A stretch of 64,000 nt of DNA from Odiellus spinosus (taxonomy: Eukaryota; Arthropoda; Arachnida; Opiliones; Phalangiidae), in assembly GCA_963920705.1 (NCBI GenBank), contig OY987232.1:16183726-16247725 (forward strand), given 5' to 3'. A program made the translations under genes and the position numbers. Below are positions 7,681 to 44,983 of this stretch, piece by piece; positions within the stretch are counted from its first letter, which is position 1, and the number at the start of each line of letters is the position of its first letter. The notes under the pieces were generated by a model. The model saw nothing but the letters and a program-made list of their open reading frames with translations. It was not told the origin of the DNA and searched no databases.

Positions 7681-7736
7681 CTTCGCTGTTTTCTGATGGG
7701 TAATTGTCTATTATCTATATCTTTTCTTCGTCTAGG

Positions 7737-18785: not shown

Positions 18786-21700
18786 CTACGCATGAGTAGT
18801 CACGACTCTGCATGCGCAATAAGTTCCATCGAGTGAACAAGAAACGTCATTATATCCAAAAGTCTCCAAACAAATTGTTTCACATATTCTGAAACTTGGT
18901 GAACCACGATTCGAACACAGATTCTTTCCCAAACCGTAATAAATTTCGCAATTCCTTCTGGGCAGATGACAAAGCAGATAGGTATTGAATCTCAAGTGTT
19001 TACTCTGGCAGAAACAATCTTCGTTGGTGCTGATGAAGGAACGCGTCATGTTTAATGAGTTGAAAACTTGATTGCACTCTTTGGAGCAATTCCTGGAGCT
19101 CGAACGAAACCCTGGACCCGGAATGACTTTAACGGGATCGGGAACACATTTTAATCTTGTAGAAACACTCTCTGGAAGTACTGAAATGATTATGGCTACG
19201 TTAGGGATGGTTTAGAGACCAAACGTTTATATGATGACATACTTGTGAATGACTTATAACAATAGCAGATTCCACTGGTCTCACAACCGACGTCTTTAGT
19301 TCCTGTAGCCTTTTCGCAAAGGAATTTACATTCTTGGCGGGTTTCTGCCATTGAATTGCATTTCATTTTAGGAGGAATTGGTATTTTGAATTGGCACTGG
19401 TCCCGCGAGCAATTACTTTGTCCACGGTTTTCAAACTGCTTCGAAACGCAATAGCATTTTGCATAGGTGTCGCATTCGGACATTTCAAAGTTGTTTTTCA
19501 TTAACTTGCGGCATTGTCTTTCGCAAAGATCTTTCGAAGGACACAAGCATTTTAATATAATGACATCTTTGTCCGAAACCTTTTTTTCATCTACAAAATA
19601 TAAGTAATAACAGAAGCCGATGAAACCCTCCTTTGAAGTATACTACTCCAATGTTCGATATAGCGCTCCTCTCTGTATGGGTAAAATTCACAATTTTACG
19701 AGTTAGAAGGGGTCCTACTTCATCCACCCTGTCTACGGAAAATTGGAAATTCTCTCTCTCCACAAACGACGACGTTTTTTGGACGAACTCCAAGGCTGCT
19801 AGAGATATTCGCTCGACGAGCTCCCGCTCCGAAAACATCTACCGTTAGGAGGCGTACGAATCGCGCCTTTTGAGAATAACCCATACAGAGAGGGGTAGAC
19901 AAGACCCGGGAGTAATAGACTTCAAAGGAGGGTTTCGTCGGCTTTTGGTAATAACCCAAGTTAGAGGACGTTTATCTTATTTATCTTTATTTCAATCAAA
20001 TTAAAAGATATCTTACCTTCGATATTGACGTCACAAGTGTATTCTCCGGATTTGAAGCGACTGATAATGTCAGATTTAAGGAAAATGGAGCATATTTGAG
20101 TACAAGCAAACATTTGCGAGTCTTTGCAATGTACTTCAGGTCCAAAAGGGTGTCTGGCGACGCAGTTCTGGTTTCCGTTGGTGCAATCGATTTTCGTCTG
20201 ATGCATAAACGTTTTCATGACGCAATAACAGTCCTTGTTGACGCAAATAGCGTCGTGTAGAAACTCACCGCCGACATTCCTGCATTTGACTCCACAAGAA
20301 TCGAATATTCCTTTAAAATATATGATCGGTGGTAGAATCGGGTTCATCGGCTTATACGCTGATATAATGAAATTAAATATGAAAGTGGCTCAGCTAAGAG
20401 TAAAATGTCTAAGGCATTGAACTTAATTGATTGAATCACTTACATCTCTCTTTGGAACATCTGCATTCTCTGTTTAGATCGCAAAAGTAATCGGTGTATC
20501 CACCAATTTTTCCACAGACGAACAAGCAGGCTTGTCCCCTTTCTATGCTCGACATGCAATTTGGGTTCTTGCCCATGGGTGCGTAATCGATGCAGGTATG
20601 TCTTAGCACGGAACATGTCGTGGTCGCTTCAAGTTTCACTCGATAGCTTACGCATATGCAGAAAGACCCCGTTTCAGGCGAGCACAGATATGATTCCAAA
20701 TACCGCTCACCACCCAATTCCTTGATACACAAATCTCTGCAACCAGCCAGGGTGCCGCCACAACCGTTTTCGATGAATACAACTAACGGTGGTATAAATT
20801 GACTGGGTGGATTCGTTGGAATTACTGGTGTTTCAGTCGTTATTCTCGGTGTCGTTGAAATAATTGGTCTTCGATACGTTGTTGTAATTTGTCTTTCAGT
20901 CGTTGGTATAATAGGTCTTTCAGTAGTTGGGAAAACGGGTCCGGGTTCGGTACTTGTTGGTGGGAAAACTGGTCCTGGACCAATTGGTGGGAAAACGGTT
21001 CCTGCTCCGGGATCAATTGGTGGGAAAACGGGTCCTGGTCCGGGATTAATTGGTGGGAAAACGGGTCCTCGCCCGGGGTCAATTGGTGGAGAAACGGTTC
21101 CTGGTCCGGGATCAATTGGTGGGAAAACGGGTCCGTGACCAAAAGGTGGAAAAACGGTTCCTGCTCCGGGATCAATTGGTGGGAAAACGGGTCCTGGTCC
21201 GGGATTAATTGGTGGGAAAACGGGTCCTCGCCCGGGGTCAATTGGTGGAGAAACGGTTCCTGGTCCGGGATCAATTGGTGGGAAAACGGGTCCGTGACCA
21301 ATAGGTGGAAAAACGGGTCCAGGACCAATAGGTGGGAAAACGGATCCAGGATTAATTGGTGGGAAAACGGTTCCTGGTCCGGGATCAATTGGTGGGAAAA
21401 CTGGTCCTGGTCCGGGATCAATTGGTGGGAAAACTGGTCCGGGACTAAAAGGTGGAAAAACGGGTCCAGGACCAGTAGGTGGGAACACGGTTCCTGGTCC
21501 GGGATCAACTGGTGGGAAAACGGGTCCTGACCCGGGATCAATTGGTGGGAAAACTGGTCCGGGACCAATAGCTGGGAAAACGGGTCCTGGACCAATAGGT
21601 GGAAAAACAGGTCTATGATCAATAGGTGGAAAAACGGGTCCTGGATCAATAGGTGGGAAAACGGGTCCGGAATCAAAAGGTGGGAAAACGGGTCCAGGAC

Positions 21701-24700
21701 TAATAGGTGGAAAAACGGGTGTGGGATCCGTAGGTGGAATTAAACCTTTCTGTTCAACCGTACACCAAAACTGCCGTAACAAATCCATCACTATCATCTG
21801 TCCACCGATTCTTAAACAGATATCGGTGCATATCTTCAACGTGGCGGGTTCTGGTCCGCAAAGGGTGTTTCGTCCCATATGTGTCGACTTGTAACAGATT
21901 TCGTTGGTCAAATCACATCGCGTTGTTACCTTATTTTTCTTATCAAAGCACGCGCATATTCCATCTCCAACGCAGAACCACTTCTCTAACTCGCCTCCCA
22001 TTTCGTATTCGCAATGGTAATTGCAAGAATCATCTCCAACACATCTAGCGCGTACTAAGAGCGCGTTATTATCATATTCTTGCCATTTTTGGGGAGTTTC
22101 CTTGTTGTTCACATAGCAAAAGCAATCACCGTTCTTTTGGCATCGTACCCCGAAAGTGAACAAACGCTTGAAGCACAGAAACTGACAGTTTTGCATGTAG
22201 TCTTTGGATTCCTGACATTTCATCTCCTGGCCAAGTGGGGCTGTAAAGTAACAACCTAAGTTAGCAGCGTTGCAAACCTCTTTAATTTCCTGGTTAAATC
22301 TCTCGTTAACGCAGTAGCAATTGTTCGACGTGTCGCAGACGTAACTGTCCAATTTCTCTCCCAAAATATTGACGCAGTATGAGTAACAACTTTCAGTCGA
22401 ACTCAAGCATCCCTTTTCGTTTCTGATGACGGGTTGCTGAACTGCTCCACCTAGATTGATTGTAAATATCGTTTTTAAGTTTTCAAGTGGTCCAAAATCT
22501 CTCTGGACGTGAGGTTATGACTGTGACAACAGTGGTATGTTGGGGTAGAAGGAAATATATTTGGTCGCAGGGATATCTTTGTCTAATTTAAAGGCATATC
22601 TTTCTTGCTACATATCGTAGTCTTGAAAAATTTAACTTTTTTATTGCAGCAAATCGTTTTTTTACAATGTATCTATCTACTTTTTGCGTCGAATTTAGCC
22701 TTTTTCAGAGTTCTAACCATTTGCCAAAATGGGGCAAACTTTTGAAAGCAGTTGGTTTGCTAAGGTTGGATTTTGTTAGTTTAGTTTTATGAGAACTAGT
22801 TGGTTGTATATTTTGGTTTTCCCAACTTGTTAACCTCACCTCCGTTAGATTTTATCTATGCCTACATACCATTTTCTAGAACGTCGTTGGATAACATTCT
22901 CTCTAGCTGGGTCTGATCCATGTCGTTAAATATCATATTATTGATACTTCTCTTCGAATGCCTTGTAATGAATGTCGAAGTATCTGACGTCACTAGTCGT
23001 GGTCTTTCAATATACGAACTGGAATTAATCTCCCTTTTACCATTTCTGTCCATAATCTGTATGTTGGAACTTGGATTTAATTTATAATCAATGTTTTTCG
23101 TGACCATGTCAATCACTGACGACATTTGAGCGACTGAAGATTGAGTGTTTTCTACTCTGGGACTGTTTTCAGAAGGTTGAGGATAATGATCACGTGGTCT
23201 CTTACGATTGTGATGTCTTCTTCTGGCCGGTTTGGCCACTGATTCGTATTCCTGATTCATTTTATTCAACGGCTGGAAACTTATTTCTTTAACATCTTTA
23301 CCATCTTTGCCGAGTAAATGTTTTAGTTGCATCGCACGTTCTTCGTTAATTGTTTTAACAAAATCAATGTCCGATTTTGCTCTGCCTACCTTTTCCACGA
23401 TATCTTGGTACATCGGACTTAAGTTTGAACCACTGGATGATAGTTCCGAACTGTTGTAGCTAATTACCTTCAGACCAGGACCGTAATCAGGTGGGGGAAG
23501 ATAGATCACTAAAGGTTCGTCCGTTTTCGATGAGTTACCATCTTTGCTGGCTGCAATTCCACTTTTGAAAGACGGTTGCGATCTTGCATGAGACGTTGGT
23601 TTTACTTTCGTCTGTGATTCGCTGTTATTTATAAATCCTCTATACCTTTGAGGATGATTGGTCGGATCGAGATCTGTAGTTTGAAACGGGCTACTCTGAA
23701 TTGGAAGGGATTTCGATGAATCTTCAAACGGTGCAACCGTACTGCTCATATTATCGGGTACGCTGATGGTACAAATACAATTTCCGTCCATGTGGCAGGT
23801 GTCTTTGATGGCGGCGTATTTTTGGTAGCACATGAGTGAGCAGGCGCGGTCCGAATTGGCGCACAACCCAGCACCCAATGATATCTCTTCCGTACAAATC
23901 AAGTTGGTACAGTTTAGAACTGGGGATGGTGCGTCTTTACTTTTTTTCTTTAAGCAGTAGCAAGCCTTAGATAAAATAGATTAGTCTGGTTTAAAATATA
24001 GTTTGGAGAATGCAACATAAAAACAAGTGATTTATTTATCGATTTTTGTTTAAATTCTCACTTTAAAGAGAGATTACCATGATCCAATCAAAAATTGAAT
24101 TTTAACTATATTAAATAAAACCAGAAGCCGATGAAACCCTCCTTTGAAGTCTACTACTCTAATGTTCCATATAGCGCTCCTCTCTGTATGGGTAAAATTC
24201 CCAATTTTACGAGATCGGAGGGGTCCTACTTCATACCCCCCTGTCTACGGAAAATTGGAAATTCTCTCTCTGCACAAACGACGACGTTTTTTTGACGAAC
24301 TCCAAGGCTGCTAGAGATATTCGCTCGACGAACTCCCGCTCCGAAAATATCAGTCGTTAGGAGGCGTACGAATCGCGCTTTTTGAAACTAACCCATACAG
24401 AGAGGGGTAGACAAGACCCGGGAGTAATAGACTTCAAAGGAGGGTTTCATCAGCTTCTGATAAAACTTACATCCTGAAACGTGCATAATGAATGATCAAA
24501 ATCTTTCCCCAATCGTTGTTTGCAAATGACTTCGCACGAATCATCCTCACAATTTCCTGGGTATCTTACTGTTCGATCAACTAAAACAAGACCCTGACTA
24601 AGTAACTCTTCACAAGAATAGAATACGTTACTTCAGAGGTATATAATAACCCCCTTCGGGGGGAAGTATGAAAGCCCCTATACTACCAATGCTAAAAATC

Positions 24701-26723
24701 ACGAACAACAAGAGCCCGCTGCTGACTATCTAGGCCACTAGCTCGCGCTGGACTTCTCAATGTCGCTACTCTAGTAAATGGTCTTTGTATAAACAAGACG
24801 GCTTGATTTGTGTTTAGAACTTCCTGTCTCGGGAGTCAGGCTGTCTGTTAAATTGGAGTCGAAGGTTGACTTCAGCTCGCGAGTTCCGGAAGCGCGCGTA
24901 GGGAAAATTAAGTGAGGTTCAAAATGGTGTAACTATTTTTTGGGAGTAAAGCGGTGTGTCGATCCGCCGCGATTTACGCCGGGCACTTGTTCGTCGATTT
25001 TGCCTACCTTTCATACTTCCTACCGAAGGGGTTATTATATACCTATGGTTACTTACATAAGCTCTTGAAGGTGAATTGTCCTGGTATTGTTTGGTTCGTG
25101 ACCTTGCCATCAACAATCCATTTCAAATTACCAACCATTTCGTTTTTGGAATGTAATCCCTTGCGGATACTCGTCACTGTATCCAGGATGGTGACGCAAT
25201 AACACTTTTCTTTGTGACAAACGGACAGTCTCGTTTCATATTCGAGATTACACATTTGCTCACAAGCTCCCTCGAAATGACATAAAATCGAACCAATGGA
25301 ATTCGCTTCCCAACATAATCTAAATCCCAGACAATAGTAATCGACGTATTTTAAGGTTCGTTTAAAAAACATAACAGTAGTATGTTAAAAATACTTTGCA
25401 AATGATTGATCAAGCAGCTAGGGTTTCTAGAAACGACATAATTACTAGCAGAAGCCGATGAAACCCTCCTTTGAAGTCTATTACTCCCGGGTCTTGTCTA
25501 CCCCTCTCTGTATGGGTTATTCTCAAAAGGCGCGATTCGTACGCCTCCTAACGGTAGATATTTTCGGAGCTGGAGTTCGTCGAGCGAATATCTCTAGCAG
25601 CTTTGGAGTTCGTCCAAAAAACGTCGTCGTTTGTGGAGAGAGAGAATTTCCAATTTTCCGTAGACAGGGGGTATGAAGTAGGACCCCTCCGATCTCGTAA
25701 AATTGTGAATTTTACCCATACAGAGAGGAGCACTATATGGAACATTAGAGTAGTAGACTTCAAAGGAGGATTTCATCTACTTCTGTTACTAGGTAACTTA
25801 CCTGGAAGCACATTCATCGAATGGTGGTTCAATGTAGCCGGTTCTTTTCAAGCAAAAGCAATCTTTGTTGTTGACGCAAACTGCTCGCTTGAAATCGGCG
25901 GCGAATTTGTCAAGGCACAATTTAAGACAAGCCCCGGAACTGTATACGCAAGCGTAAGGGAAAACGAATGACCTCTCACCTGGTCCTTCACTTTTGTTTC
26001 TTGTTGACAGTACTGAATTAAACAACGACATGGATACCAATCACCAGCAAATAACATACAATCACTGTTCTTTGAAATTGATCCCTCCAACCAATCGCGT
26101 AACGCCTTGCCTTCCAGCGAACAAAATACTCGTGACACGCGCTATGTCAAGCGCAATTACAGCGCGAGATTTGATAGCCACGAGCATTTTGTTCGCTGGA
26201 AGGCAAGGCGTTACGCGATTGGTTGGAGCTGCACAATTTTAAAGAACAATGAAATAATATTTTGGCCTTTAATTAGAATATTATCCGCGTTATACGTTCG
26301 GATAAAAAAATTTAAAATTTATTTTCGAGAAAAATTATGAGTAAAAAGATGATTTAAAATCTTAGTTTCGTTGTTTTATTTATATTCTTCGAATTAAAAG
26401 TCAATTTGAAATGTTTTTCTTATATTTTAGACTAATTCTGGAAACGCGAATGTTTCTTATCCATCGTTATACGTTTGAATACGAGTAATTTGTAGATAGA
26501 TAAAGCGCCAAACGCTTATCTTCGGGTAAACCTTTTAACAATTATACGAATATACAAATTTTATTTTTAGTTACAATTTATCCGAAAATAAAATATCTGA
26601 AAATATACGAATAACAGAAGGTAATGGATCGATCCGATTCCGAGCTATAATTATTTAATTTAATGGAATTTTACCTATTGTTTGAAGCGCAAATATAACT
26701 AATGTTACTTTTAAGCTGTTCAT
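18786..26723 (-). CDS. Secreted multi-module six-cysteine (CS-alpha-beta-like) protein, minus-strand paralogue
   Basis: Predicted 1606-residue secreted protein from nine exons: 26723-26675, 26012-25802, 25319-25057, 24580-24471, 23965-22870, 22450-20444, 20358-20017, 19590-19243, 19180-18786. All junctions are GT-AG; 4821 nt close in one frame. Exon 1 encodes a signal peptide, MNSLKVTLVIFALQTIG. About 16 modules follow, in pairs, each with C-x(n)-C-x3-C-x(n)-C-x(n)-C-x-C, the spacing of defensin-type CS-alpha-beta folds, with a C...C...G linker inside each pair. Exon 5 adds a Ser/Asn/basic region with LPPPDYGPG; exon 6 holds three module pairs split by PVFPPIDPGPG repeats. Modules match the second half of the plus gene in order. 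Two modules have an incomplete cysteine set. It ends soon after the last module and lacks the Ser/Gly tail of its paralogue. Fold and role are inferred; no named family recognised. Confidence 0.85.
19611..19947. mobile_element. Family A MITE, copy 7
   Basis: 337 bp with an exact 7-bp duplication GTAATAA (19604-19610, 19948-19954). In an intron of the minus gene, its left end 20 bp from the acceptor of exon 19590-19243. Confidence 0.92.
20940..21738 (-). repeat. Coding Pro-rich repeat array (PVFPPIDPGPG)
   Basis: About 25-30 tandem variants of an 11-17 residue unit around PVFPPI-(D/G)-PG-P, encoded inside exon 22450-20444 of the minus gene. A higher-order duplication is visible: the block near 20991-21140 is repeated almost identically near 21165-21300. 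The plus paralogue has a Thr/Pro/Lys-rich stretch at the same position instead. Open frames on the other strand here are by-products of the repeat. Confidence 0.85.
24002..24056. mobile_element. Family D terminal fragment
   Basis: GGAGAATGCAACATAAAAAC followed by AAGTGATTTATTTATCG: left end of D only, in an intron of the minus gene close to the 23965 acceptor. Confidence 0.55.
24122..24459. mobile_element. Family A MITE, copy 8
   Basis: 338 bp with an exact 7-bp duplication ATAAAAC (24115-24121, 24460-24466). Lies 12 bp from exon 24580-24471 of the minus gene, immediately past its donor. Confidence 0.92.
24634..25047. mobile_element. Family B MITE, copy 2
   Basis: 414 bp with an exact 7-bp duplication GTTACTT (24627-24633, 25048-25054). 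The right copy of the duplication overlaps the splice donor (GTAAGT on minus, 25051-25056) of exon 25319-25057, so the element entered the first bases of that intron. Confidence 0.9.
25449..25785. mobile_element. Family A MITE, copy 9
   Basis: 337 bp with an exact 7-bp duplication TTACTAG (25442-25448, 25786-25792). Ends 17 bp from exon 26012-25802, just inside the intron behind its donor. Confidence 0.92.
26058..26253. mobile_element. Short palindromic element (family J)
   Basis: About 196 bp. Arms of about 50 bp (CCAACCAATCGCGTAACGCC / GGCGTTACGCGATTGGTTGG) extend outward to GTTCTTTGAAATTG and CAATTTTAAAGAAC. Single copy in the window, in intron 1 of the minus gene. Confidence 0.65.
26272..26648. 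mobile_element. Family E (subtype b) MITE, truncated
   Basis: From TTAGAATATTATCCGCGTTA to CGATTCCGAGCTATA, matching the right two thirds of the 47818-48369 copy. In intron 1 of the minus gene. Confidence 0.75.
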
Positions 26724-27855
26724 TTCGTGGCGTTGCAGATTTTTAACTTGTCATGCTAAATAATACGAAACATTATAATTGTTGTTGAAAAAAAAACGTT
26801 TTTTTTTTTACTCAAGATTAGTTTTATCTAGAGAAACGTCAATGCCTAAGAATGTTTGATGAAATTAAATACTTAATTTAATATTTGTGATAATTAAAAT
26901 AAATTAAGGTAATCAGCACGTTTCCATTGAAACTAATATAAGATCGAGTAAAGTCACGAAAATACAATAATAATATAATTCCAAAACAAAACCCTATCAT
27001 ATTCAGAATAAATTATAAAATATCATTAGAAAATGATGAAAATTAAAGGGAAACTTGGAGCTGAAAACTGACTAGAGCTCGAAATCGGATCGATCCATTA
27101 TCTTCCGTTATTCGTATATTTTCAGATATTTTATTTTTGGATTAAATTGTTTGTAACTAAAAAATGAAATTTAAATATTCGTATAATTGTTAAAAGGTTT
27201 ACCCGAAGATAAGAAATTTGCCGCTTTATCTATCTACAAATTACTCGTATTCAAACGTATAACGATGGATAAGAAACATTCGCGTTTCCAGAATTAGTCT
27301 AAAATATAAGAAACAATATTTCAAATTGACTTTTAATTCGAAGAATATAAATAAAACGACGAAACTAAGATTTTAAATCATCTTTTTATTCGTTATTTTT
27401 CACGAAAATAAATTTAAATTTGTTTTATCCGAACGTATAACGTCTATAATATTCTAAGATAAGTTGCCATTTTTGGATAAAAACGGATATGGATTATGTT
27501 TTTTAATTTATCTTCGAATAAGTTAACTCGATTGAAAATTAGTCTATTTTTAATGATACATATAATATACATCAGAATTTAGTAGATTTTATCCAATTAA
27601 TAAATATTATACCGATTCCGAGCTCTATTCCTAACGAAACACGATCTTAAATTATTTTCGAGAACGTGCTGATTATCGTAATTTATATTAATTATCGTGA
27701 ATATTAATTAAACCGTTAGTGTTTAATTTCATTATATATTTTTTCGCATTGACCATTAAAATAAAAAGCAATCTCTAGTCCAAAAATAGGGTTATTTTTC
27801 TTGTATTATTCAGATGTTTCGGACTAAAAAAAAGTTGAAAATAAAATAGAACGCC
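26724..27855. promoter_or_regulatory. Divergent intergenic region between the two giant genes
   Basis: 1132 bp separate the two facing start codons (26723 on minus, 27856 on plus). Both promoters must lie here or in shared flanks, unless further non-coding first exons exist. About half of it is a family E MITE (27073-27627). TATATATTTTTT near 27731-27742 is the only TATA-like element I can point to for the plus gene. Bidirectional control is an inference from geometry. Confidence 0.6.
27073..27627. mobile_element. Family E (subtype b) MITE, full length
   Basis: 555 bp, TAGAGCTCGAAATCGG to CCGATTCCGAGCTCTA. Flanks do not give a clear 8-bp match. Lies midway between the two divergent genes. 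Confidence 0.8.
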
Positions 27856-30800
27856 ATGAAAATGAATCGTTTAAAAGTTATATTTATTTTATTTGGACTT
27901 CAAGAAATAGGTATTGTATTATAATTAATATAATATCATGTTTAAAAATATTAATAATTATTTCAAATTGACTTGAATTTAAAAAATGTTAAAGTTCACG
28001 AAATTATTTTCACCTCAGGCCCAATTAACAGGCTTTAACATAGCAAAAAAAAATGTGTACAACCCTAGACGAACCTTTTTTACTTGTAAATTAGAGGATT
28101 GTCTGGATGTTGTCTAAAATTGTGTTTAGTTGTCTAAAATTGTGTTTTGTTGTCTAAAATTGTCTTGAAGCTGCCTAAAATTATCTTGAAGTTGCCTAAA
28201 AGTTGTTTTGAAGTTGCCTAACTACATTAAATAATTCTTTGTAACGTGATACTTAGGAATAAGGAAGGATTTTAAATATACCCTTATAATTCTATTTTAA
28301 TCCCAACAGAAGCCGATGAAACCCTCCTTTGAAGTCTACTACTCCAATGTTCCATATAGCGCTCCTCTCTGTATGGGTAAAATTCCCAATTTTAGGAGTT
28401 AGAAGGGGTCCTACTTCATCCCCCCTGTCTACGGAAAATTGGAAATTCTCTCTCTCCACAAACGACGACGTTTTTGGACGAACTCCAAGGCTGCTAGAGA
28501 TATTCGCTCGACGAACTCCCGCTCCGAAAACATCTACCGTTAGGAGGCGTACTAATCGCGCCTTTTGAGAATAACCCATACAGAGAGGGGTAGACAAGAC
28601 CAGGGAGTAACAGACTTCAAAGGAGGGTTTCATCGGCTTCTGGTCCCAAGTAAAGCATCTGATTGAAAAATATATCCTGAACTAATTTTTAGGAATAGCG
28701 GATTTGGTGTATGATCGCTCAGGGATTATCCAAGGAGGATGCCAAGACGAGGAAACGGACAAAGATTCTAGATGCGAACGATCATGTCAGATGCAACGAG
28801 GTATGTTGCACGGCCATTGCTTCAAGAGCCAGGACTGTTATTGCGTTCGAAGCACCCTTGATCATAAATACACCGAGAGAAAATGCCTAGTTAAACGGGA
28901 TTGCTACTTCGTCTACAATGTTGGACGCGCTCTTTGCTCCAAATCGGATCCAGAGGCATGCGAATTTGTTTGCAAAAAATGGTACCAAACCAGGAAATAC
29001 GAATGTAATAGCGACGGGTGGTGTACTTGCTGGCAATTCGACTATGAACCACAAAATCTTGCCCGTAAGTAAGCTTAATACTATCAGCAAAGCTCGAGGT
29101 AAATGTACCGACTTTTTTGTTTCATTGTTTCAGTTGGAAATCCTAATGAGCACAGTATGATGGTTGGAGATTCAAAGTGCCAGAAGAGCGAAGATTGCTC
29201 ATTGGCGTGTCCTTCTTTCTACCACTTACAAATGTGTCTTTACGAGCAGTGTTTCTGTCTGAAAATCAACAGTAATTACAAACCGCAGCTGCTGTGTAAT
29301 ATCTTCAAGGAAAAGGAACAGTGCGACATCGTCTACAATCTGGGAAATCAACTGTGCACCATCGAAAAAAAAGGCCCTTGCAAGACCATTTGCAAAAACG
29401 TCATGGGGGCCGACCATTACGAATGTCATCGATTGGACAACGTTTGTAGATGTTTCCTGCCACATCCCAGTAAGTAAAATGTATTTACTCTATCGTTGCC
29501 TACGACATAACTTAGTTGATGCGCCAGTGTTATGAGCTGATCTGAATTCAGTAGACGCGTTAGTGTGTAGTGTTATGGGACGCTCGTTAGTTGTAATGTA
29601 AATACAATAGGTCTATGGTTACATAAGAACTATGTATTATCGTGTGAAGGCATTTCATATTGTACCTATTATGTTTAGAATTGCTATCGACCGATAGAGG
29701 TTCGGTATTTCCAAAAATGTGTTACTTGGCCATTGAACATTGCTACAATCTGTGCAAGGTTTTATTTGGCGAAGATTACGATTCCAATTGGTGCGTTGAA
29801 GACGCTTGCTATTGCTTAACGAAAAAGGGTCGAAAAGAACCCCAATTCAGTAATTGCGACAACAAAGATTGCGTCGATAATCTTAGTTTGGGTCAATTCC
29901 TTTGCGGAACCAATGACGATGGCGCTTGTCCCGAAATGTGTTACAAAGAATACAAAACAAAGATGTATAAATGTAACAGACGAACTCGCGAATGCGTTTG
30001 CTTAGTTAAAAAGAAAAATACCGAGCCAAAGCGTGTTGTCAAAATGAAGGAGATAAGTTTAAATAAATCTGACATACCTGAGGATAAAAATAACACTAAC
30101 GAAATTATCATAAAATTGGAAACGAGCGAAAAATCGGAACGAAGCCCAAAGAATTCTGGTAACAGAGCAGACCATAACGTTGTTCAGACTGAGAGAACTA
30201 ATACTTTTACAACATTAACGAAGAATTACATGACCAATTATGACCAGGACGACCTTAATTTTGAGAAAAAACAAGGTAAGTTGAAATTTTTATGCTAAAC
30301 GTGAAACATTAACTATATTAGTAACTAACAAAACCAGGCGCAAATCTGCCGAGGCTTAGTTGCCAAGGCTTAGCAGTTTTTGTTAAGAAAGACATTGACA
30401 GAAATAATTCAAATCGATGTCTGTTGTTAATAGGCCTATATCAGAAGCCGATGAAACCCTCCTTTGAAGTCTACTACTCCAATGTTCCATATAGCGCTCC
30501 TCTCTGTATGGGTAAAATTCCCAATTTTACGAGTTAGAAGGGATCCTACTTCATCCCCCCTGTCTACGGAAAATTGGAAATTCTCTCTCTCCACAAACGA
30601 CGACGTTTTTTGGACGAACTCCAAGGCTGCTAGAGATATTCGCTCGACGAGCTCCCGCTCCGAAAACATCTACCGTTAGGAGGCGTACGAATCGCGCCTT
30701 TTGAGAATAACCCATACAGAGAGGGGTAGACAAGACCCGGGAGTAATAGACTTCAAAGGAGGGTTTCATCGGCTTCTGCCTATATGAAATAGATATACAA

Positions 30801-33800: not shown

Positions 33801-36800
33801 GTTACTTCGAATTAGATTTTGTTGGGAGGCGAATTCTATGGGTTCGACCTTGTGTCGTTTCGAAGGAGCTTGCAATCAAATGTGTACCCGCGAATATGAG
33901 ACGAAACTATCCGTTTGTCACAAAAACAAATGCTTCTGTGCCACCACGCTGGACACGGCCACGAAAATTCGCAAGGGACTCTATTCCAAAAACGAAATGG
34001 TTGGAAATTTGCAATGGATTGTTGACGGCAAGGCTACGGACCAAACAATACCAGGACTCTTCACTTTCAAGAGTTTATGTAAGTAACTTATTAAGTATCT
34101 GATTGCAAGGTTAGTGTCCGTATTGGCGGAGTTAGGATTGAAATTGAATCTATGATCTTACTTGATAAAGGAATATTACTGTGATTCTTAATGGGCTAAT
34201 GTGTTTAAATGCACTATTGTACTTATTACATATGCACATTTGTATCTGTTCCTAACTGTACTTGTTATTAATGGGCTAACTGTACTTATCCCTAATGGAC
34301 TAATTGTACTTGTTCCTAATGGACTAATTGTACTTATTCCTAATAGACTAAAGGTACTTGTCCCAAATCGAATAATTACATGTATTTGGTTCCCAAGAGT
34401 CTATTTAAAAGATTTTTTATGCAGATTGAGTGTGTAGAGCTTCCAAAATGTTATAGATTTATTCTTTTCCGTGTCCGCGATTATTGTTTTAGTTGATCGA
34501 ACTGTAAGATACCCAGGTCCTTGCGAGGATGATTCGTGCGAAGCCATTTGCAAAAAACGACTCACTGTCGATTTTGACCATTCATTGTGCACATTTCAAG
34601 ATGTAAGATCAGTTTTTCGATAAAAAATCACTTGTTGTCGAACTTACCATTAAATTGTCAACATAGGCTTGCTATTGCTTGAAGAAGAAAAATAAACACG
34701 CCCCTCATCCGGTTCAAACTTGTTCCAACGAAATTTGTACGAAACAGATATCGTTGGGTGCTGGCTTATGCGTCAATTCGGAGCGAGCATGCTCTCTCAT
34801 GTGCTATCAAAAATACGCAGCCGTCAAAGACACCTGCCATATGGACGGAACTTGCATTTGTACCATGAATGTACCTGGTACACTCGTGATTTCTCCTCAG
34901 AGTGGCTCGCTGGAAAATCCACCTTCAATTAGTCCACTTAGCTCAATAGACCTTCAGTTTGAAAGTATTCCAGATAACAAATCACTGACAGTTTCACCTA
35001 TGTCCGATAAAGACCCTAACGTAAGATTAAGGCCAATGTTTGGTGCAATTGCAACGAACAAAGATGATAACCCTTCGATAGCGGATAAACCTCTTGTGAT
35101 CTATGTTCCACCACCGGATTATGGTCCTGGTCTCGAAGTTAGATATAAAGGTTCATTATCTTCTTCAAGTGGTTCAAACTTAAGTCCACTTTACCAAGAT
35201 ATCGTGAGAAAGGTCGGCAGAGAAGAGTCGAACATTGATTTTGTTAAAGCAATTAACGAAGAACGAGTGAAACAGTTAAAAAATCTACTTGGCAAAGAAG
35301 GCAAAGATGTTAAAGAAATCATCTTCCAACCTTTGAATAAAAGTAACTCGGAATCTGAACTCTTAGACAATCGCGAGAGAAAACATGATCATCACAATTC
35401 CCGCTCAAATAAACGAGTCAAAACTCCTCAACTTTCAGTTGCTCGAAACGGTCAAGAAATGGTACACCATCAATCTTCTATCGTCGAAAATCGTAACGGA
35501 ATAAGAAATCCTGAACCTTCAGTTGTCCAGAACAGTGAAGGACGGGAATACCCTCAACCTTCACTTGTCCAGAACAGTCAATCTTCAGTTGTCCAGAACA
35601 GTCAACCTTCAGTTGTCCAGAACAGTCAACCTTCAGTTGTCCAGAACAGTCAACCTTCAGTTGTCCAGAACAGTCACGGAAGTGAATACCCTAAACCTTC
35701 AGTTGTCCTGAACAGTGACGGAAATGAATATCCTCAACCGTCTGTAGTCCAGAACAGTCAACCTTCAGTTGTTCCCATATATGACAATCCTTCTAAAGCG
35801 AACGAAAATGAAGTAATCTATGTCCCCCCACCGGATTACGGTCCTGGTATCAAAGTAAACTACGATAGCTTGGTACCTCGTTCAGTTGTCCAAAATAGTC
35901 CCAAAATTCAACACCCTCGATCTTCAGTTGTCCAAAACGGTCCCAGAATTGAATATTCTCAACCATTAAATGCCCAAAATAGTCCCAGAATAGTATATCC
36001 TCAACCATCTGTCCAAAACGGTCCCAGAATTGAATATTCTCAACCATCAAATGTCGAAAATAGTCCCAGAATAGTATATCCTCAACCATCTGTCCAAAAC
36101 GGTCCCACAATTGAATATTCTCAACCATCAAATGCCCAAAATAGTGCCAGAATAGTATATCCTCAACCATCTGTCCAAACCAGTCCTGGTCTAGAATACC
36201 CTCCACCTTCAGTTGTTCAAAACAGTCCCACAATAGAATATCCTCAACCTTCGGAGGTACCAATCTCGCTAGTGGCCAACGAAAATGGGTCCGCGCAACG
36301 TATTGATTACGAACTAAAGCCGATTAGCATCCAGATTAAAGATACAAATGGTAATTTCGTACCTTACAAGAACGCTGATTCGGAATTGAACGCAAATCAA
36401 CAGGATGTTAAGGCAACCAAACCCTTAGAATTTGTAATCGAACCAGAACAATCAGTCTTGGTTGATGTAAACTCGATGGAATCGACAGGACAATCTAGAA
36501 GAATGAAAATGATACATAGCACACCTCATAAACACTCTCACTCATCGGTCCAAAGGTCCAAAAATTTAACCGAAAACGTCAAAAACGGTAAATATAGTTA
36601 CCACCAATCCCATGGCTTCGGTGCCCGGAATAAGAATCACCCTGTAAACATGGCCAATCTACCGTCTTTGGATGTAGTTGAGGTACGTTCGGTAGAATCT
36701 ATCAACGATCCTGAAATTAGACACGCTTTCCTAGCTAAACGTCATGTAGAGCGTACAAACAAAGTTTCCGATAACGCAATTAAAAACATAAACCCTCAAA

Positions 36801-39800
36801 TTATAAGCCATTCTGGGCAAAGTGAAGCTGTGTCTAAGAACCAAGTTGGAACTACTGAATCTATGTCTAAAAACAATCCTAGACAAAATGGATCTATGGC
36901 TGAGAAATATTCAAGACAATCTGGATCTATTAGTGAAAACTATTCTGGTCTAGGTGAGACTATGCTTAAGAATAATCCTAGACTTGCAGAAACTATCCCT
37001 AAGAACAATTTGGAACTAAGTGAAACATTTGCTAAGAACGAAGACGAAACTGAAGATACAATGGTTAAAAGCAATTTTGGGCAAGGTCAAGCCATGGTTG
37101 TAGACAGTACAGGACCCAGTCAAACTATGGCTGTAGACAGTTCAGGACCAGGTGAAACGCAGTCTATGAACACTATGGAAAAGATTGTTGTACAAGGTCA
37201 AACTATGGTAGTCAACCACCGACTCCGGTTAGCCAGAAGCGCCCAATTAATTCCCAACACACCAATAGGGAGTGGATACTACGATCAATCAATAGACAGT
37301 CATCCTGGCCATTCGCATTCGCTCGATAATCGAAGGAAATTAATTAAAAGTAATCGAGGCAAAATTAAAGTTGAAGTTGCCCCCAGTTACGTCGTTGAAT
37401 CGATAGATGTACCACTTGGAAAAATGGCTAATAAACCTGCAGGGCCGAACTTCGCAAATATTGAAAAACTGATGAAAAAATCAGCTCTAATGGACATAGA
37501 TCCTAGCGCATCTCGAAAGGATGTTGTAAATTCCCACGAATCAGATACTGAGGTCGAAAATCCCTACGAATCAGAGACTGCTTTCATAACACGCCGCATA
37601 CTAGAAAGAAAGGTCTTAAATCCCAACGAATCAGAGAATGCGGCCTTAAATACCAACGAATCAGACACTGCGACCGTAAATGCCCGTGAATCAGAAACTG
37701 CGGTCGTAAATGCCAGTAAATCAGAAACTGCGGTCGTAAATTCCCGCGAATCAGAAACTGCGGTCGGAAATACCCGCGAATCAGTAACTACGGTCGTAAA
37801 TCCCAGTGAATCAGGAAATGCGGTTTTAAATCCCAACGAATCAGAAACTGCTGTCGTAAATCCCAGTGAATCAGAGAACTTGTCTGCCGCTAAATCGGAC
37901 CCAGAATTTAGAAAAATAAATCTAAAAAATGGGACCAAAGCAATTGATTTGAAATATAATTTTAAAAGAAACACGAATGAAATGATGAGTATGGTGCCGG
38001 TTCAGCCCCCAAAATGTGTGATATGCAACGAAGTCCCGTGTCCACATGAAGGTCTAAAAACGAACGAAGGTGAGGTCGAAAGCTTCTACACCTTTGACCA
38101 CTTTCCAAATTAGGAGCGGCTAAAAACAAAAGCTTCTGCTGTTTTCAGGAAATTGCCATCAGGAAATACTTCCACCACCTGCGGAAATTATTCAATTGGA
38201 TACTATAGAAGGTAAAATCAAAAGGTTAAAGGAATACTAGTCTAGGAAAACAACTTAAAGAAATATTTTTCGCATTGCTAATGATATATTAAATATGCTT
38301 TTTGAACAGCCCCGCCAAGATTACTTCCATTAGACGAAAAACAACCCTTTATACTCCCGCCCTTATTACCTCCAATTAATGAAAATCCATCCAGGTGGAT
38401 AGATTTTGTACCGAATATAAATAGGGCCTTCATACTCCCACCAGAGATTCCGAAAAACTATCCTCCAATCATCCCAGATATTCCGAAAACAGATGGTCCT
38501 ATGGAAAAGCACAGTAAGTTTTGAATCAGATTCCTATAGGAAGAGGTATATAATAACCCCCTTCGGGGTGAAGTATGAAAAGTAGGCAAAATCGACGAAC
38601 AACAAGTGCCCGGCGTAAATCGCGGCGGATCGACACACCGCTTTACTCCCAAAAAATAGTTACACCATTTTGAACCTCACTAAATTTTCCCTACGCGCAC
38701 TTCCGGAACTCGCGAGCTGAAGTCAACCTTCGACTCCATTTTAACAGACAGCCTGACTCCCGAGACAGGAAGTTCTAAACACAAATCGAGCCGTCTTGTT
38801 TATACAAAGACCATTTACTAGAGTAGCGACATTGAGAAGTCCAGCGCGAGCTAGTGGCCTAGATAGTCAGCAGCGGGCTCTTGTTGTTCGTGATTTTTAG
38901 CATTGGTAGTATAGGGGCTTTCATACTTCCCCCCGAAGGGGGTTATTATATACCTCTGCTATAGGCTTGAAAGGGAGATTATTAGCTGAAATTGTAATAC
39001 AAAAATTAATAATGTAATTATATTTTCAACTTTAAAAAGGTAGCTATATCGATAATTATATCATCGTGATTACTAATGGTTGTCAAGGCAACGGTAATCG
39101 ATCAGCTTGTCGGAACAAGTGTGTGTGTCAATTCGGAACAGAACAATTGGACTCTTTTTACTGTCGAATGGGCAGAGATTGTATTTGCGTCAGCCGTTTA
39201 TTGAAAAAACATCAAACTAACACCTGCAAAGGTGGAGCATGCGGGATCTTTTACCCAATGGGAAGAAACGTTAATTGCCAACGCGATGTCATCCGCAAAA
39301 AAACATGCAGCGGACTTTGCGAACTTGTTGTCAATGTACCAACGTACTATTGCGATCGAAATGGTCTTTGTTTCTGCGTTCGATACGATGAAGATAACTT
39401 AGGTAAGTGAAAACAATGTTGTCTACAAGTGGTTAATTCCATTTGATCGACTGACAAATGATCAAAGATAAAGTTAAGTCAGGTTAGGTTAGTTTCTTAT
39501 CTCGATCACTTGAACCCAATTGAATAGTCAAATGTAGTGACAAGCGAAAAAATTGGAGCTATTGGATTGCTATTTTCGTTTTTCTTCAGCTCTATAATTA
39601 GAAATGTCAACGCCCCGTAGCTTAATACTATCCGAAAAGGCCCTGGTAAATGTCCCATCAGATTCTGATTCGAGACACTCTAGCGGCCGCAGTTGGTTTA
39701 AATAATGAAATCGGAAGGGCCACTCTTTGGGGAAATTCAGGAGTTGGGGGGGGGGCAATATAGCCAAGCGCGGCCCGCCTGAATTCCGTCCCTCTCTCCC

Positions 39801-42800
39801 GAATCAAAATATCGAGGAAGAGTCCAAGTTACTCGAGCCAGACAGGGATGTGGACTTTTTTGACTATTTTTAAGTGATGGGCTATGACATGAAATTGGTC
39901 CTTTGCTGATAGCGTTATTTACTTTTATGTAATAAAGTGATAGACTTTTGTTCATGTCAAGAGGTTGTTGAAGCCCATAAGTACCTTGAGAAATATAGCT
40001 AGTCCTTTGGTTGGTTCAAGAAGGATCAGATAAGGAGAGGAAAAGTGGGGCTGCGTTGAGTTAGAGAGAGAAGAGCCAACCTCCCACTCGGGTGGAAAGG
40101 GGGGATAGGAAATTCTCGAGGTAAACTGTTGTCACGTGGTCGCTAGCTAGCGCGTCTCATAAAGGATTCGTTTTACCCACGTGACAACAATTTACCACGA
40201 AGCATCTCTACCCCCGTCTGTCCCCCGTTCTCCCAGAGTGGGAGTTTAGGCCGACGCAGTAGGAGCCGCGCCGTTCCCACTTTTCCTCTCCTTATCTGAT
40301 CCTTCTTGGTTGGTTACACGAACTTCCCTTCAACCATTCGCGTCTTTAATTATAATTTAAAGGTACTACGAAGCAACCTTTGGTTCCTAAACCCGAAATT
40401 TTGGATGCCGTAATAAAGATACCGAGTAATTGTAAAGAAAGCATAGAATGCTTCGAGTTGTGCCAAAATTTGGTAGGCAGGGTCAATCTCTTCAAGTGGA
40501 TGTGCTTGCCTTCTGAGAACTGCTTTTGCTTTACCAACAATTTCTTAAATCGCGTGACGACTCATTGTGATAAAACAGGTCAAACGTGTTCTAGAAGATA
40601 TCCATTAGGTCCTCAAGTATTCTGCGGTCCGTCTCACAAAGAAATGGTGTTTTGTCGACACGTGTGTTTGTCCACGGTTAAAACCGTTCAAGTAACGTGC
40701 TTCAACGGATATAAACTATGCTCCTGTTTTGTTCGTAAGTCAAACCAATTGTTCAACTTTGGCACGTTTCACAATAACGTACTTATTGAATTCCGTGTGC
40801 ATCCGTGATTAAAGGGAAAATGCAACCTAACAAGTGTTTTTTATCTATTCCTTATCGTTTAAATAGGCCTAATCCACAAGTAAACCAAAAATACAAATAA
40901 ATATTAAACTAGAAATGCATTTAAAACTTACCATCAAAATAGGCTTAGCTGGATTCATGGAGATATCCTGAATTTCTTCGCATTAAAGGGTCAGCGACCA
41001 ATCGAATGTTATTAAAAGTATCATGGAGATCTCGTCTTAAAGGCGGACCTTCGCTCATTGGTCGGTGACCCTTCAATGTGAAGAAATTCAGGATCTCCAT
41101 GAATCCAGCCTATTTTCCGGGTTTCATATTTAGGCCTATATAAACGATAAGGAATGGATTAAAAATCAGTTGTTTTTAGGTTGCTCGTTAATGAAATGTA
41201 ACCAGTTCGATGGTTATTATTATATAGATGAGCCTCAACAACCCAAGTTGACAACTCAAGGTAAACCACCTACAATAATGTCAACTACTAAATCACCGGC
41301 AACAATACCCACGACTGTTAAACCACCGACTACAACGCAAATACCTTTTACACCACCGTTGACTCTATTCTTCGAAAACGGTTGTTCCGGTGGCAAAGAT
41401 TCATGCAGAGAACTTTGCGTCAAAGAGTTGGGTGGTTGGAAGAATTTGGCATCGCATATGTGCCCGCCCGCGGATCAATCTTTATGCATCTGCGTCAGTA
41501 ATCGCGTGAAACGTCAAACTACCACGTCCTGCTCTCCACTGAAACTTATCTGCAACGACCACGCCCCTATCGGCAAGAACGCCAACTGCATGTCAAGCAC
41601 CAAAAGAGGACAAGCCTGCTTGTTCTTGTGTCAAAGTTTGGGCCTATACACTGATTACAGTTGCGATGCCAACGGAGAATGCGAATGCTCCAAAGACAGA
41701 CGTAAGTGTGTTAACTATTTAAAGTTTTCATCTAAGTAAAAGCAGACGTGAAAAAATGTGTAGATTTGTTAGAAGGTTAACCATTTCGTTGCACTTTTAT
41801 ATTTCCCTTAAAGGGAGAATGCAACCTAACAACAAGTGATTTTTTTTATCGATTCCTTATTGTTTAAATAGGCCTAATCCACTACTGAAAATATTTACAA
41901 ACAAATATTAAACTAGAAATAAATTTAAAACTTACCCTGAAAATAGGCTTAGCGGGATTCATGGACGTCCTGATTTCCTCGCGTGTAAGGTCTAGCGACC
42001 TACCGCGCGCGACTGTATGTCTCGTGGAGATCTCGCGTGAACGACGGGCCTTTGCTCATTGGTCGCTAGACCTTACACGGACGCGATTCAGGATCTCCAT
42101 GAATCCCGCTAAGCCTATTTTCAGGGTAAGTTTTAAATTTATTTCTAGTTTAATATTTGTATTGTAAACTTTTTATCGGTGGATTAGGCCTATTTAAACG
42201 ATAAGGAATCGATAAAAAATCACTTGTAATTAGGTTGCATTCTCCCTTGAAAGCTTTATTGACATACCTTTGTTTTTGAATTTATTGTTACTACAGACTA
42301 GAGATTTAGACCTCGGAATTAAAATATCCGAAAAAAAAGCCTAGTTATATCCTAAGTTATTCATTATCCGATTCGATCTCTAAGTACACCAAAATTAATT
42401 TAACCCTCAGCCCGGTTGCCTGTAGATAATTAGGAATAGATAATAACGCTAGTGGTTTATGTCCTAACAGCGTATAAGCCGGACTACCCTGTTCTGCCTA
42501 CGATCATGCACTTTAAAGGAATGTGTTCCATTTGCGACATTAAATGCAGAAGTATCGGTCTTGGATTTTTACTTGATTCTGTTTGCGTCAACGAAGACTG
42601 TTATTGCGTCACGAAAAAGTTTAAACAAGATCCTAAAGTAGAATGTACTAATGGCAACGACACTTGCGTCGCCAGATACCCGTTCGGACCAGAATTCGAT
42701 TGCCAAGGCTCGCAAAAATGTGACTGCGCGTTAATTTGCAAAACTTTCCTCAAATCGGATCATGTCAGTTGTAAAAAATCTGGAGTGTGTAGTTGCGATG

Positions 42801-44983
42801 TCAAGTACGAAACGCCTGGTAAGTTCGACATTTTACAATAGCTACGGTCACACTAGCATTTCTACGAAACTGGTTCCCGAAGCAGTTTCGAGAAGTCGAA
42901 TCAAATCGATTCGAGAAAAGACGGTTTCTCTTATAGCCCTCTTACTTTTATTTGTAGAAGAAAAAGAGAAACGGCTTAAGGGTTCGAACGATGACGTCAT
43001 TGTATTGCAAGGTGTCTGCGCCACGAAAGTACTTTGCGAGGTTGAATGCCGTAAGAAAATGAAGTATAATTTTGGAAATGCCGATTGCGACACCAATGGC
43101 AAATGCTTTTGCGTTTCGAAACATTTTGAATTAAAGGGTCAAAGTATTTGCTCTCCGAATGGCAAAGGCCTATTTAAAATTCCAATTCCTTCCAAAATGA
43201 AATGCGGTTCGACTGCCATTAGCCGCCAAGACTGCAAATTCTTTTGCAACATGGCTGCCATTACGACAGACGTCGGCTGCGAAACTAGTGGAATCTGCTA
43301 TTGTTATAAGTCATTCAGAGGTATGTGTAGTTTCGATAATATTTGTTTAATGTCAGCAAGGTATGTGCCAAATTTAATGGGTCAAATTAAATGTAGAAGA
43401 ATCAGAAGCTGCAATCGAACGTTTAGAATAGTTTCGTCGTAAATTCTGGGAATTTTCACAGAAGGGGTTACGGTAGTCTTCAAGCGAAGATTGCAATGAG
43501 TTAGTCAAACTCTCATTTTGCAAACTTCTCTTGAACTTTGAGAAAGGTGGGTGGTGAGAACCAGCTGCCGTTTATTTACTGATAAAAACGTCTTTAAATT
43601 CCCTTTAGTTTTAACTTACTAACTGCTATTTCTATTTTGGAAGCTGTTTATTAATTCATGGCAAAGAAATAAACCTCCGACTTTTCAAAAGATGCGTTAG
43701 ATTCCCCCTATTTTTAATTAGATTTAGTTTAAATATTCGTAATTTTTTCAGTGCTTCCTTATCAAGTTTGGTCGAAACTCATATCAGTTCCCGACCCTGT
43801 AAAAGTCGTTCCAGGTCCAGGTTTCTTCTCAGGTAACAAAAAATGCCCAATTGCCTGCGCCCGGGTTTTCAACGCATCAACTATCGCGAATTACTTCGCC
43901 AGTTCTGACGAAGATTGTTTTTGCGAAAGTAAACTGTTATCGCGAAATTCGAAAAACGTGTCTTATTTTCCCCCGGGAAATTGCGAAACATACTTTGGTT
44001 TGGGAAGACATTTGTGCTTAAGTCGTGGTTCCGCTAGTTTCAAAATATGCGAAACAATTTGTTTGGGGACATTTAGATTTCCTGATGTCTCTTGTTCACC
44101 CGATGGAACTTATTGCGCTTGTAGAGTCGAAATGGGTATTACAAATACAGCTGGCTCTTGTGAATCTCCATTGATAAATCACGATAAGCCTACAAAACCT
44201 ACTACCGTTAAACCTCCAAAAGCTACTACCGTTAAAACTCCAAAAACTACTACCGTTAAACCTCCAAAACCTACTACAGTTAAACCTCCAAAAACTACTA
44301 CCAATAAACCTCCAAATCAATCAACTAATTCCGCTCCGGGTGGTTTGCAAGCTGGTGCTTCTGGGTCAGTTAGTTCGGGGGCTGACGGCTTAAAGTTAAG
44401 ACGTTCTATATTTGGCTATTTAGGTGGTTCTACGTCGGACGGTTTAGGGTTAAGTGGTTCTATGTCAAGACATTCTACGTCTGATGGTTTAGGGTTAAGT
44501 GATTCTTTGTCAAGACATTCTACCCTTGGCGGTTTAGGGTTAAGTGATTCTATATCAAAACGTTCTATGTCTGACAGTTTAGGGTTAGGTGGTTATATTT
44601 CAAGACGTTCTACGTCTGGCGGTTTAGGATTAAGTGGTTCTTTGTCAAAACGTTCTAGGTCTGGGGGTTTAGGGTTAAGTGGTTCCACGTCAAATAGATT
44701 TAGGTCTCCTTCCTCGGGTAGCAATATTCGTTCACCGTATGTTAGTGGTAAGCATTCCTCGTCAGTTGATTTAAGTAATCACCATTTATCTGGTTTAAAT
44801 TCACCTAATGGTGATGGAAGTCGAAAGTCTCTTTGCGGAGAAACCTCATGGTCATTTGGAAGAAAAGCGCCATTGATATTTAACGGTATTGCCCCAATGT
44901 CGATCAGTCTTAGAGCGAGATCATCCTCAATTCGCCATGGAATGTCCAGGCCTTTTAGTCGAAGTGGGTCATTATTATTTTAA
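27856..44983 (+). CDS. Giant secreted multi-module six-cysteine (CS-alpha-beta-like) protein, plus-strand paralogue
   Basis: Predicted 3263-residue secreted protein, 21 exons: 27856-27910, 28693-29064, 29134-29469, 29679-30275, 30881-30994, 31202-31234, 31709-31996, 32463-32621, 32775-33206, 33542-33752, 33816-34078, 34493-34602, 34667-38069, 38149-38211, 38310-38513, 39040-39402, 40363-40734, 41228-41701, 42471-42818, 42958-43320, 43752-44983. All GT-AG; 9792 nt close exactly in frame, and most introns are phase 1. Exon 1 is a signal peptide (MKMNRLKVIFILFGLQEIG). About 24 modules with C..CxxxC..C..CxC spacing follow as 12 pairs joined by C...C...G linkers. Thr-rich (exon 9), Ser/Asn/Gln/Pro repeats (exon 13) and a Ser/Gly C-terminal tail (exon 21) separate or follow them. 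Modules 9-24 match the minus gene in order. Exon 39040 has the weakest acceptor. Fold inferred from spacing; structural, immune or toxin-binding roles are all possible. Confidence 0.85.
28085..28220. repeat. Short tandem repeat in intron 1
   Basis: About six degenerate units of TTGTCTAAAATTGTGTT / TTGAAGTTGCCTAAAA type, roughly 20 bp each, in the first intron of the plus gene. Confidence 0.6.
28307..28642. mobile_element. Family A MITE, copy 10
   Basis: 336 bp, flanks ATCCCAA and GTCCCAA (one mismatch in 7). Ends 50 bp before the exon 2 acceptor of the plus gene. Confidence 0.9.
29073..29110. mobile_element. Family F fragment
   Basis: GCTTAATACTATCAGCAAAG plus GGTAAATGTACCG: a 38-bp remnant of family F in the 69-bp intron between exons 2 and 3 of the plus gene. 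Confidence 0.55.
30442..30778. mobile_element. Family A MITE, copy 11
   Basis: 337 bp with an exact 7-bp duplication CCTATAT (30435-30441, 30779-30785), in intron 4 of the plus gene. Confidence 0.92.
31017..31047. mobile_element. Family D terminal fragment
   Basis: TTGTAAGGTTGCATTCTCCC followed by TTTAA: right end of D only, in an intron of the plus gene. An AAAAT microsatellite lies further on, near 31287-31316. Confidence 0.55.
32030..32406. repeat. Minisatellite in intron 7
   Basis: About 17 imperfect copies of a 21-bp unit GGTTTGACGAGCCAGGGTTGT. The intron it fills splits one cysteine module of the plus gene between its third and fourth cysteines. Confidence 0.8.
32870..33140 (+). repeat. 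Coding Thr-rich repeat (exon 9)
   Basis: ACA/ACG codons encode runs such as TPTTTKTPTTETPSTTTT and TTTMPTTPTTS, a mucin-like linker likely to be O-glycosylated. A unit of about 105 bp is repeated (from about 32939 and 33026). The long Val-rich frame on the other strand is a by-product. Confidence 0.8.
34205..34370. repeat. Minisatellite in intron 11
   Basis: Six or so imperfect copies of TAATGGACTAATTGTACTTG-type units (about 24 bp). Confidence 0.65.
35500..36250 (+). repeat. Coding Ser/Asn/Gln/Pro repeats (exon 13)
   Basis: Two nested arrays: five near-identical 8-residue units VVQNSQPS (about 35567-35690), then several 26-27 residue units built on IVYPQPSVQNGP and IEYSQPSN (about 35880-36250). 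Low complexity, hydrophilic, no cysteine. Between them lies the second copy of VPPPDYGPG. Confidence 0.8.
37530..37885 (+). repeat. Coding ESETAVVN repeats (exon 13)
   Basis: About ten tandem 10-12 residue units around NPSESETAVV (acidic Ser/Glu/Asn-rich), encoded near the 3' end of the 3.4-kb exon of the plus gene. Absent from the minus paralogue. Confidence 0.75.
38541..38958. mobile_element. Family B MITE, copy 3
   Basis: 418 bp, first base of the left terminus changed (AAGAGGTATATAATAACC), exact 7-bp duplication CTATAGG (38534-38540, 38959-38965). In intron 15 of the plus gene, 27 bp past the donor. Confidence 0.9.
39608..39950. mobile_element. Family F MITE, copy 3
   Basis: CAACGCCCCGTAGCTTAATA to AAAGTGATAGACTTTTG; the left terminus is shortened. 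In intron 16 of the plus gene together with a family C copy. Confidence 0.8.
40017..40308. mobile_element. Family C MITE, copy 3
   Basis: 292 bp, CAAGAAGGATCAGATAAGG to CTTATCTGATCCTTCTTG, exact 7-bp duplication GTTGGTT (40010-40016, 40309-40315). Both termini carry the same substitutions, consistent with a sub-line of the family. Confidence 0.9.
40814..41187. mobile_element. Family D MITE, diverged
   Basis: TTAA then AGGGAAAATGCAACC; the right arm ends TTTTTAGGTTGC and is then followed by CGTTAA. It makes up most of the 493-bp intron between exons 17 and 18 of the plus gene. Confidence 0.8.
41812..42247. mobile_element. Family D MITE, copy 11
   Basis: Complete palindrome in intron 18 of the plus gene. 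Left flank TTAA (41808-41811), right flank TTGA, so one base has changed since insertion. Confidence 0.87.
42308..42386. mobile_element. Family E fragment
   Basis: CGGAATTAAAATATCCGAAA to CATTATCCGATTCGATCTCT: an internally deleted family E remnant, 85 bp before an exon of the plus gene. Confidence 0.55.
42842..42932. repeat. Family I fragment
   Basis: GCTACGGTCACACTAGCATT followed by ACTGGTTCCCGAAGCAGTTTC: same sequence as 6652-6677 joined to 7222-7270. It shows the uninterrupted form of the family I site that family D split. In intron 19 of the plus gene. Confidence 0.55.
44395..44710 (+). repeat. Coding Ser/Gly/Leu repeats (C-terminal tail)
   Basis: About seven 20-residue units of the form S(D/G)GLGLSGS(L/M)S(K/R)(R/H)S in exon 21 of the plus gene, after a KPPKTTTV-repeat linker (44190-44320). 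The tail has no cysteines and no counterpart in the minus gene. It resembles low-complexity parts of structural secretions such as silk or cuticle proteins, without identity to any I recognise. Confidence 0.75.

Follow-up and report, generated by a model that had tools for sequence, protein, structure and literature searches.

In this study, we analyzed a 64,000-nucleotide stretch of the genome of the arachnid Odiellus spinosus (the window; contig C8:16183726-16247725 of the 443-Mb assembly), in which two divergent paralogous genes encode chains of a paired, cysteine-rich repeat unit. Our preferred reading, to which we give a probability of about 45%, is that both genes encode giant secreted beads-on-a-string proteins of ~1600 and ~3200 amino acids, which are kept whole and form a multivalent scaffold or coat outside the cell. 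The bead would be a disulfide-rich double unit of the cysteine-stabilized alpha-beta (CS-alpha-beta) type, and the string a long linker rich in Pro, Thr, Ser or Asn and partly mucin-like. After secretion, the intact protein might be placed in the matrix, the cuticle, or an egg or secretion coat, where the small stable domains would bind partners and the linkers would space the domains. The CS-alpha-beta fold is mostly known from small free peptides such as antimicrobials and venom peptides. If each chain is expressed as one protein, this scaffold can also serve as a module of a giant extracellular protein.

Architecture of the two genes

The minus-strand gene (26723-18786) consists of nine exons with eight GT-AG introns and encodes 1603 amino acids in eight repeat units (M1 to M8), its stop codon being located at 18788-18786. 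For the plus-strand gene, 16 firm exons form an in-frame core of 2995 amino acids, while the best model (27862-44983) comprises 21 exons, 20 GT-AG introns, and 3213 amino acids in twelve units (P1 to P12). The five additional exons are permitted by the splice scan and are less certain. They include four possible small linker exons which come solely from that scan (30938-30994, 31202-31234, 38149-38211, and 38445-38513) and a probable Thr-rich, mucin-like linker exon (32775-33206).

GT-AG borders were imposed as a condition of the gene-model search and are not independent proof of the exons. Such support comes from two splice sites that are conserved between the minus and plus genes, donor 25057/34078 and acceptor 24580/34493. 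Introns are in phase 1 in 6 of the 8 cases in the minus gene and in 18 of the 20 in the plus gene. Each chain is opened by a predicted signal-peptide exon (26723-26675, MNSLKVTLVIFALQTI; 27862-27910, MNRLKVIFILFGLQEI). Both of these exons end in phase 1 and are alike, as are the ~200 bases upstream of them, and the two ATG codons are 1138 bases apart. Thus, a preceding sequence-only reading was right about the matching signal exons, the exon counts of 9 and, in the best model, 21, the GT-AG junctions and the closing frames, whereas the lengths it gave (1606 and 3263 codons) differ from those of our models.

It is unlikely, in our view, that each chain holds several shorter genes whose joining produced the giant frames as an artefact. 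Units P1 to P4 of the plus gene have no counterpart in the minus gene, and the plus frame can stop soon after P4 (open frame ending at 32659), both of which would suit such an arrangement. Against this, the phases close throughout, and the gap 32621-33542 contains neither a signal exon candidate nor an AATAAA or ATTAAA polyadenylation-like signal, signals of this kind being present at both gene ends (18696; 45041 and 45054). On the plus strand, no further signal-exon candidate was found between 29103 and 34000. Moreover, the minus gene, with nine exons none of which is uncertain, already joins eight units. Each gene would be expected to yield a single transcript.

The paired repeat unit and its relatives

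In the 20 units of the window, ~110 amino acids carry 14 cysteines in the order C..CxxxC..C..CxC, then C..C, then G..C..CxxxC..C..CxC. The 8 and 12 units correspond to 16 and 24 halves, which are related to each other within the unit (profile comparison, probability 91%, E 9.7e-7). A strict six-cysteine pattern was found in 12 halves of the minus protein and 22 of the plus protein, while 500 shuffled controls each gave means of 0.12 and 0.08 with a maximum of 2. The ~16 and 24 six-cysteine modules counted beforehand therefore stand as halves but include some with lost cysteines or unusual spacing. The 12-cysteine pair implied by that count has to be replaced by a unit of 14, since the linker between the halves adds a C..C.

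Structure prediction supports the CS-alpha-beta-like modules that had been recognized beforehand. In AlphaFold models of P3 and M3 (predicted local distance difference test, pLDDT, of 86.9 and 91.9), DSSP assigned beta-alpha-beta-beta to both halves; the helix carries CxxxC and the final strand CxC. Foldseek searches with the unit models gave nothing at E 0.001 in PDB or BFVD, and the rows listed were mostly unrelated folds. In two other lists of structural matches, 18 of 50 and 10 of 50 listed rows were, as read from their titles, defensins or scorpion peptides, each spanning one half of the unit model. Termicin and plant defensins (1MM0, 1N4N, 4UJ0, and 6DMZ) did so at 1.8-2.5 Å.

Lost cysteines give a divided picture of the presumed disulfides. 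A C1-C4 disulfide agrees with units M8 and P12, from which both C1 and C4 are missing (a single loss shared by the two). Unit M6, lacking C1 alone of these two, and unit 3 of a family gene on another contig (C15), lacking C1 and C2, disagree with C1-C4, C2-C5, C3-C6 pairing. We tentatively suggest, at somewhat short of even odds, a new extracellular domain type, namely an obligate CS-alpha-beta pair locked by seven disulfides, including one that joins the two halves; a single arthropod lineage would use this pair as the bead of its giant matrix or coat proteins. On this reading, the defensin scaffold would have become a module from which large structural proteins are built, comparable to EGF or fibronectin modules.

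The unit is not a product of chance, as a profile built from the 20 units of the window recovered four unseen units on contig C15 with iE values from 1.5e-22 to 1.4e-12. This third family gene (L014, G000:C15:16680625-16683088, minus strand) has four units on phase 1 exons. One unit has lost cysteines, and one unit has a net charge of +12. The automatic model of this gene recovered three of the four unit exons whole and did not resolve a signal exon. Window units aside, scanning 144 kb surrounding the window and 60 kb surrounding the C15 gene with the profile gave nothing else at E <1; a 25-residue end piece of P4 alone scored 2.8. Whole-genome protein searches with different units matched only the window and C15, and their counts are lower bounds.

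No relative of nine frames and the 20 units was found in Pfam. PF01097, the arthropod defensin family, matched none of the 20 units, and the hits obtained with them (six families with one member each, best E 0.021, Toxin_3 at E 4.2) were chance-like. Among PDB sequences, the unit profile matched none at E 10, and thus no solved toxin. In a search of 5.8 billion proteins, the minus protein gave 3506 candidates, none at E 1, within proteins of ~892-2837 amino acids; the query was the first splice model (1621 amino acids) with words from its first 500 residues. The unit alignment gave 78 candidates from the same proteins, none at E 10, within ~60-205 amino acids, so that fragments or genes between these two length ranges lie in a blind spot. 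As a search control, a cytochrome P450 of the window, pieced together from its exons, matched 316 proteins at 1e-10, many of them from named arthropods, and the database therefore holds arthropods.

Ordinary arthropod defensins share the predicted CS-alpha-beta arrangement with CxxxC and CxC, but they are short, single-domain proteins, unlike the chains of 1603 and 3213 amino acids without a PF01097 match. In the Odiellus genome, this family gave four matches over the cut-off (C5:20864276, C5:20867475, C7:20085607, and C8:15198588), one of them ~1 Mb from the window and none inside it. Profile comparison of either unit half with these defensins gave a probability of ~1%, a weak test in which two of the four places could be parsed. 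The likeness to defensins is one of fold pattern rather than of demonstrated homology.

The closest precedents in layout that we found are nasonin-2 and nasonin-6 of Nasonia vitripennis. The publication on them describes phase 1 introns and 4-5 defensin repeats, notes no signals for processing by proteases, and proposes exon duplication and an antimicrobial-like role of the repeats (PMC2853521). Like them, the Odiellus genes combine a signal exon and defensin-like repeat exons with phase 1 introns in one secreted protein. The nasonin repeat is described as a single module, whereas the Odiellus unit is a fused 14-cysteine pair in 8 and 12 copies with linkers of up to ~1100 amino acids, a distinction drawn from the published description. 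The earlier impression that no described family has this layout thus holds for the sequence libraries, in which no relative was found within the protein lengths covered, but is only partly right in view of the nasonins. Compared with the smaller precedent from the wasp, the new elements are the paired repeat unit, how many units there are, and how long the linkers are.

The Odiellus proteins would also fit the secreted cysteine-rich repeat proteins (SCREPs), a class that is defined broadly, by description, through secretion and the repetition of cysteine-rich domains, although the main text of that publication contains no 'defensin' and names no specific relative (PMC6262176). A publication on CS-alpha-beta groups in nematodes and on saposin genes with multiple domains has no bearing on the layout (PMC10506718). 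A component of venom or of a secretory gland acting on other animals would be in line with the CS-alpha-beta folds and multivalent cysteine-rich repeats that occur among venom peptides (PMC6262176). We consider it very improbable, because the size, the long low-complexity linkers, the near-neutral units and the strong constraint are unlike venom peptides and no solved toxin was matched by sequence.

Growth of the arrays and fate of the proteins

Across the two chains, the pairs M1-P5, M2-P6, M5-P9, M6-P10, M7-P11, and M8-P12 share 53-79% identity, compared to 16-38% among units inside one chain. Therefore, the array predates the duplication of the gene, and its order was mostly kept. Orthology of M3 and M4 with P7 and P8 is unsupported, the identities of 26% and 28% lying within the background. 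Units P1 to P4 are either extra in the plus gene or were lost from the minus gene. At the nucleotide level, the exons of the two genes match colinearly, and their first exons form an inverted duplicate. Its left arm (26650-26949), which holds the signal exon of the minus gene along with the sequence upstream, has 69% identity to the right arm (27639-27934), which holds the corresponding parts of the plus gene. As the paralogy includes signal exon and upstream sequence, one family was duplicated and not invented twice.

The relatedness of the halves, of the units of the two chains, and of the genes is in line with the suggestion made at the outset that the family grew as a defensin-like pair was duplicated serially. 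In our preferred reading of a scaffold or coat protein, a single CS-alpha-beta module would have been doubled into a pair, the pair multiplied through duplication of exons with phase 1 borders, and the whole gene, including signal exon and upstream sequence, copied in inverted orientation. Such a series from single module to pair, array, and inverted gene copy would be useful for studying the growth of these proteins. The tree of the units is poorly resolved, with 5 of 21 inner branches well supported and many long branches.

Both chains are open, spliced reading frames under selection. The ratio of nonsynonymous to synonymous substitution rates (dN/dS) was 0.10, 0.25, 0.15, 0.18, 0.39, 0.17, 0.27, and 0.23 in eight of nine paired stretches (six units and two linkers), these being point estimates from a simple counting script with dS values high in places, up to 1.63. 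The ninth, M3 versus P7, was saturated. Most paired stretches are under purifying selection.

The linkers include one of 316 amino acids with 35% Pro, one of 191 with 39% Thr, and one of 1107, and the plus protein ends in a Ser-rich tail of 280 amino acids. In many places they are built of in-frame minisatellites, with periods including 24, 27, 30, 33, 42, 45, and 81 bases. The motif PPPDYGPG occurs in long linkers once in the minus gene (23260-23562) and twice in the plus gene (35043-35342 and 35792-35858).

Precursors of several peptides are common for cysteine-rich peptides, and the chains might accordingly be polyproteins cut into many double-domain peptides. The dibasic sites (KR or RR) would suit this alternative; they lie in long linkers, namely in 2 of the 7 between units of the minus protein and 3 of the 11 between units of the plus protein, and in the tail of the latter. 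It appears improbable, since 13 of the 18 inter-unit linkers have neither KR nor RR, the cleavage sites covered here, and several span just 1 to 14 residues. After residue 25, neither protein has a hydrophobic 19-residue stretch above 1.6, and the net charge of the 20 window units ranges from -5 to +6. Based on the few KR/RR linkers, the absence of a membrane-like stretch and these charges, we infer an intact, soluble or matrix-bound extracellular protein. The predicted signal exons and the 8 and 12 two-half units likewise uphold the multi-module extracellular protein proposed before.

The units are near neutral on the whole and not cationic as a rule, which bears on a further alternative: a multivalent immune effector or recognition protein, whose units would bind microbes or their surface molecules with avidity provided by the long chain. 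The fold is that of antimicrobial peptides, the nasonin repeats set a precedent (PMC2853521), and some units are positive, up to +6 in the window and more so in the third gene. However, besides the overall neutrality, purifying selection has preserved the order and sequence of most paired units, the rapid change that is usual in effectors is not seen, and the genome has its ordinary defensins elsewhere. We thus regard an immune role as possible but rather doubtful.

Exon organization and other features of the window

In the minus gene, the signal exon is followed by exon 2 (25802-26012) with the first half of M1 (module A) and exon 3 (25057-25319) with its second half (module B) and a linker. 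Exon 4 (24471-24580) encodes the first part of M2, and exon 5 (22870-23965) its remainder and a linker of ~295 amino acids. Exon 6 (20444-22450) comprises M3, M4, the 316-residue Pro-rich linker with VFPP-type repeats, and M5. Exons 7 (20017-20358), 8 (19243-19590), and 9 (18786-19171) carry M6, in which three cysteines are lost, M7, and M8 with the stop codon, respectively.

In the plus gene, the signal exon has a weak donor (score -0.3). Units P1 (28693-29064) and P2 (29134-29469) occupy one exon each, P3 lies with a linker in 29679-30275, and P4 is divided between 31709-31996, with most of the unit, and 32463-32621, with its end (the CxC strand) and a linker; the profile match of this short piece by itself is weak. 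The exons 33542-33752 (first half of P5), 33816-34078 (second half of P5 and linker), and 34493-34602 (first part of P6) are the counterparts of minus exons 2, 3, and 4, respectively. The remainder of P6 and the ~1100-residue minisatellite linker follow in 34667-38069. Further downstream are P7 (39040-39402), P8 (40363-40734), a Thr/Pro-rich linker with P9 (41180-41701), P10 (42471-42818), P11 (42958-43320), and finally P12 with a tail of KPPKTTTV-type and Ser/Gly-rich repeats and the stop codon (43752-44983).

Several repeats accompany the genes. An inverted repeat lies between them (26273-26649 and 27073-27457, 92% identity); as part of it is found again at 18430-18605 (90% identity), it is probably a dispersed element. 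Copies of a dispersed repeat of ~340 bases at 25449-25793, 28305-28642, 30435-30779, and other places are 95% alike, and many more were seen as open reading frames across the window. A 415-base stretch is found inverted in introns of both genes (24634-25044 and 38544-38958) with 97% identity and represents either a recent mobile copy or gene conversion.

On the minus strand, frames at 61823-63289 and 10875-12193 look by eye like fragments of ionotropic receptors; in Pfam, Lig_chan matched two pieces at 61.8-63.3 kb with E 0.035 and 0.076 and neither of the two at 10.9-12.2 kb. The exons of the mitochondrial-clan cytochrome P450 are also on the minus strand (3674-7707), with 42% identity to the best match and 38% to the best named match, from a spider. 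As a hint only, a tree of 46 rows with midpoint root and an open fork puts this P450 on a side that also holds sequences from crustaceans, spiders, scorpions, a mite, and an oyster, apart from the insects. A second P450 first exon at 501-232 suggests another copy.
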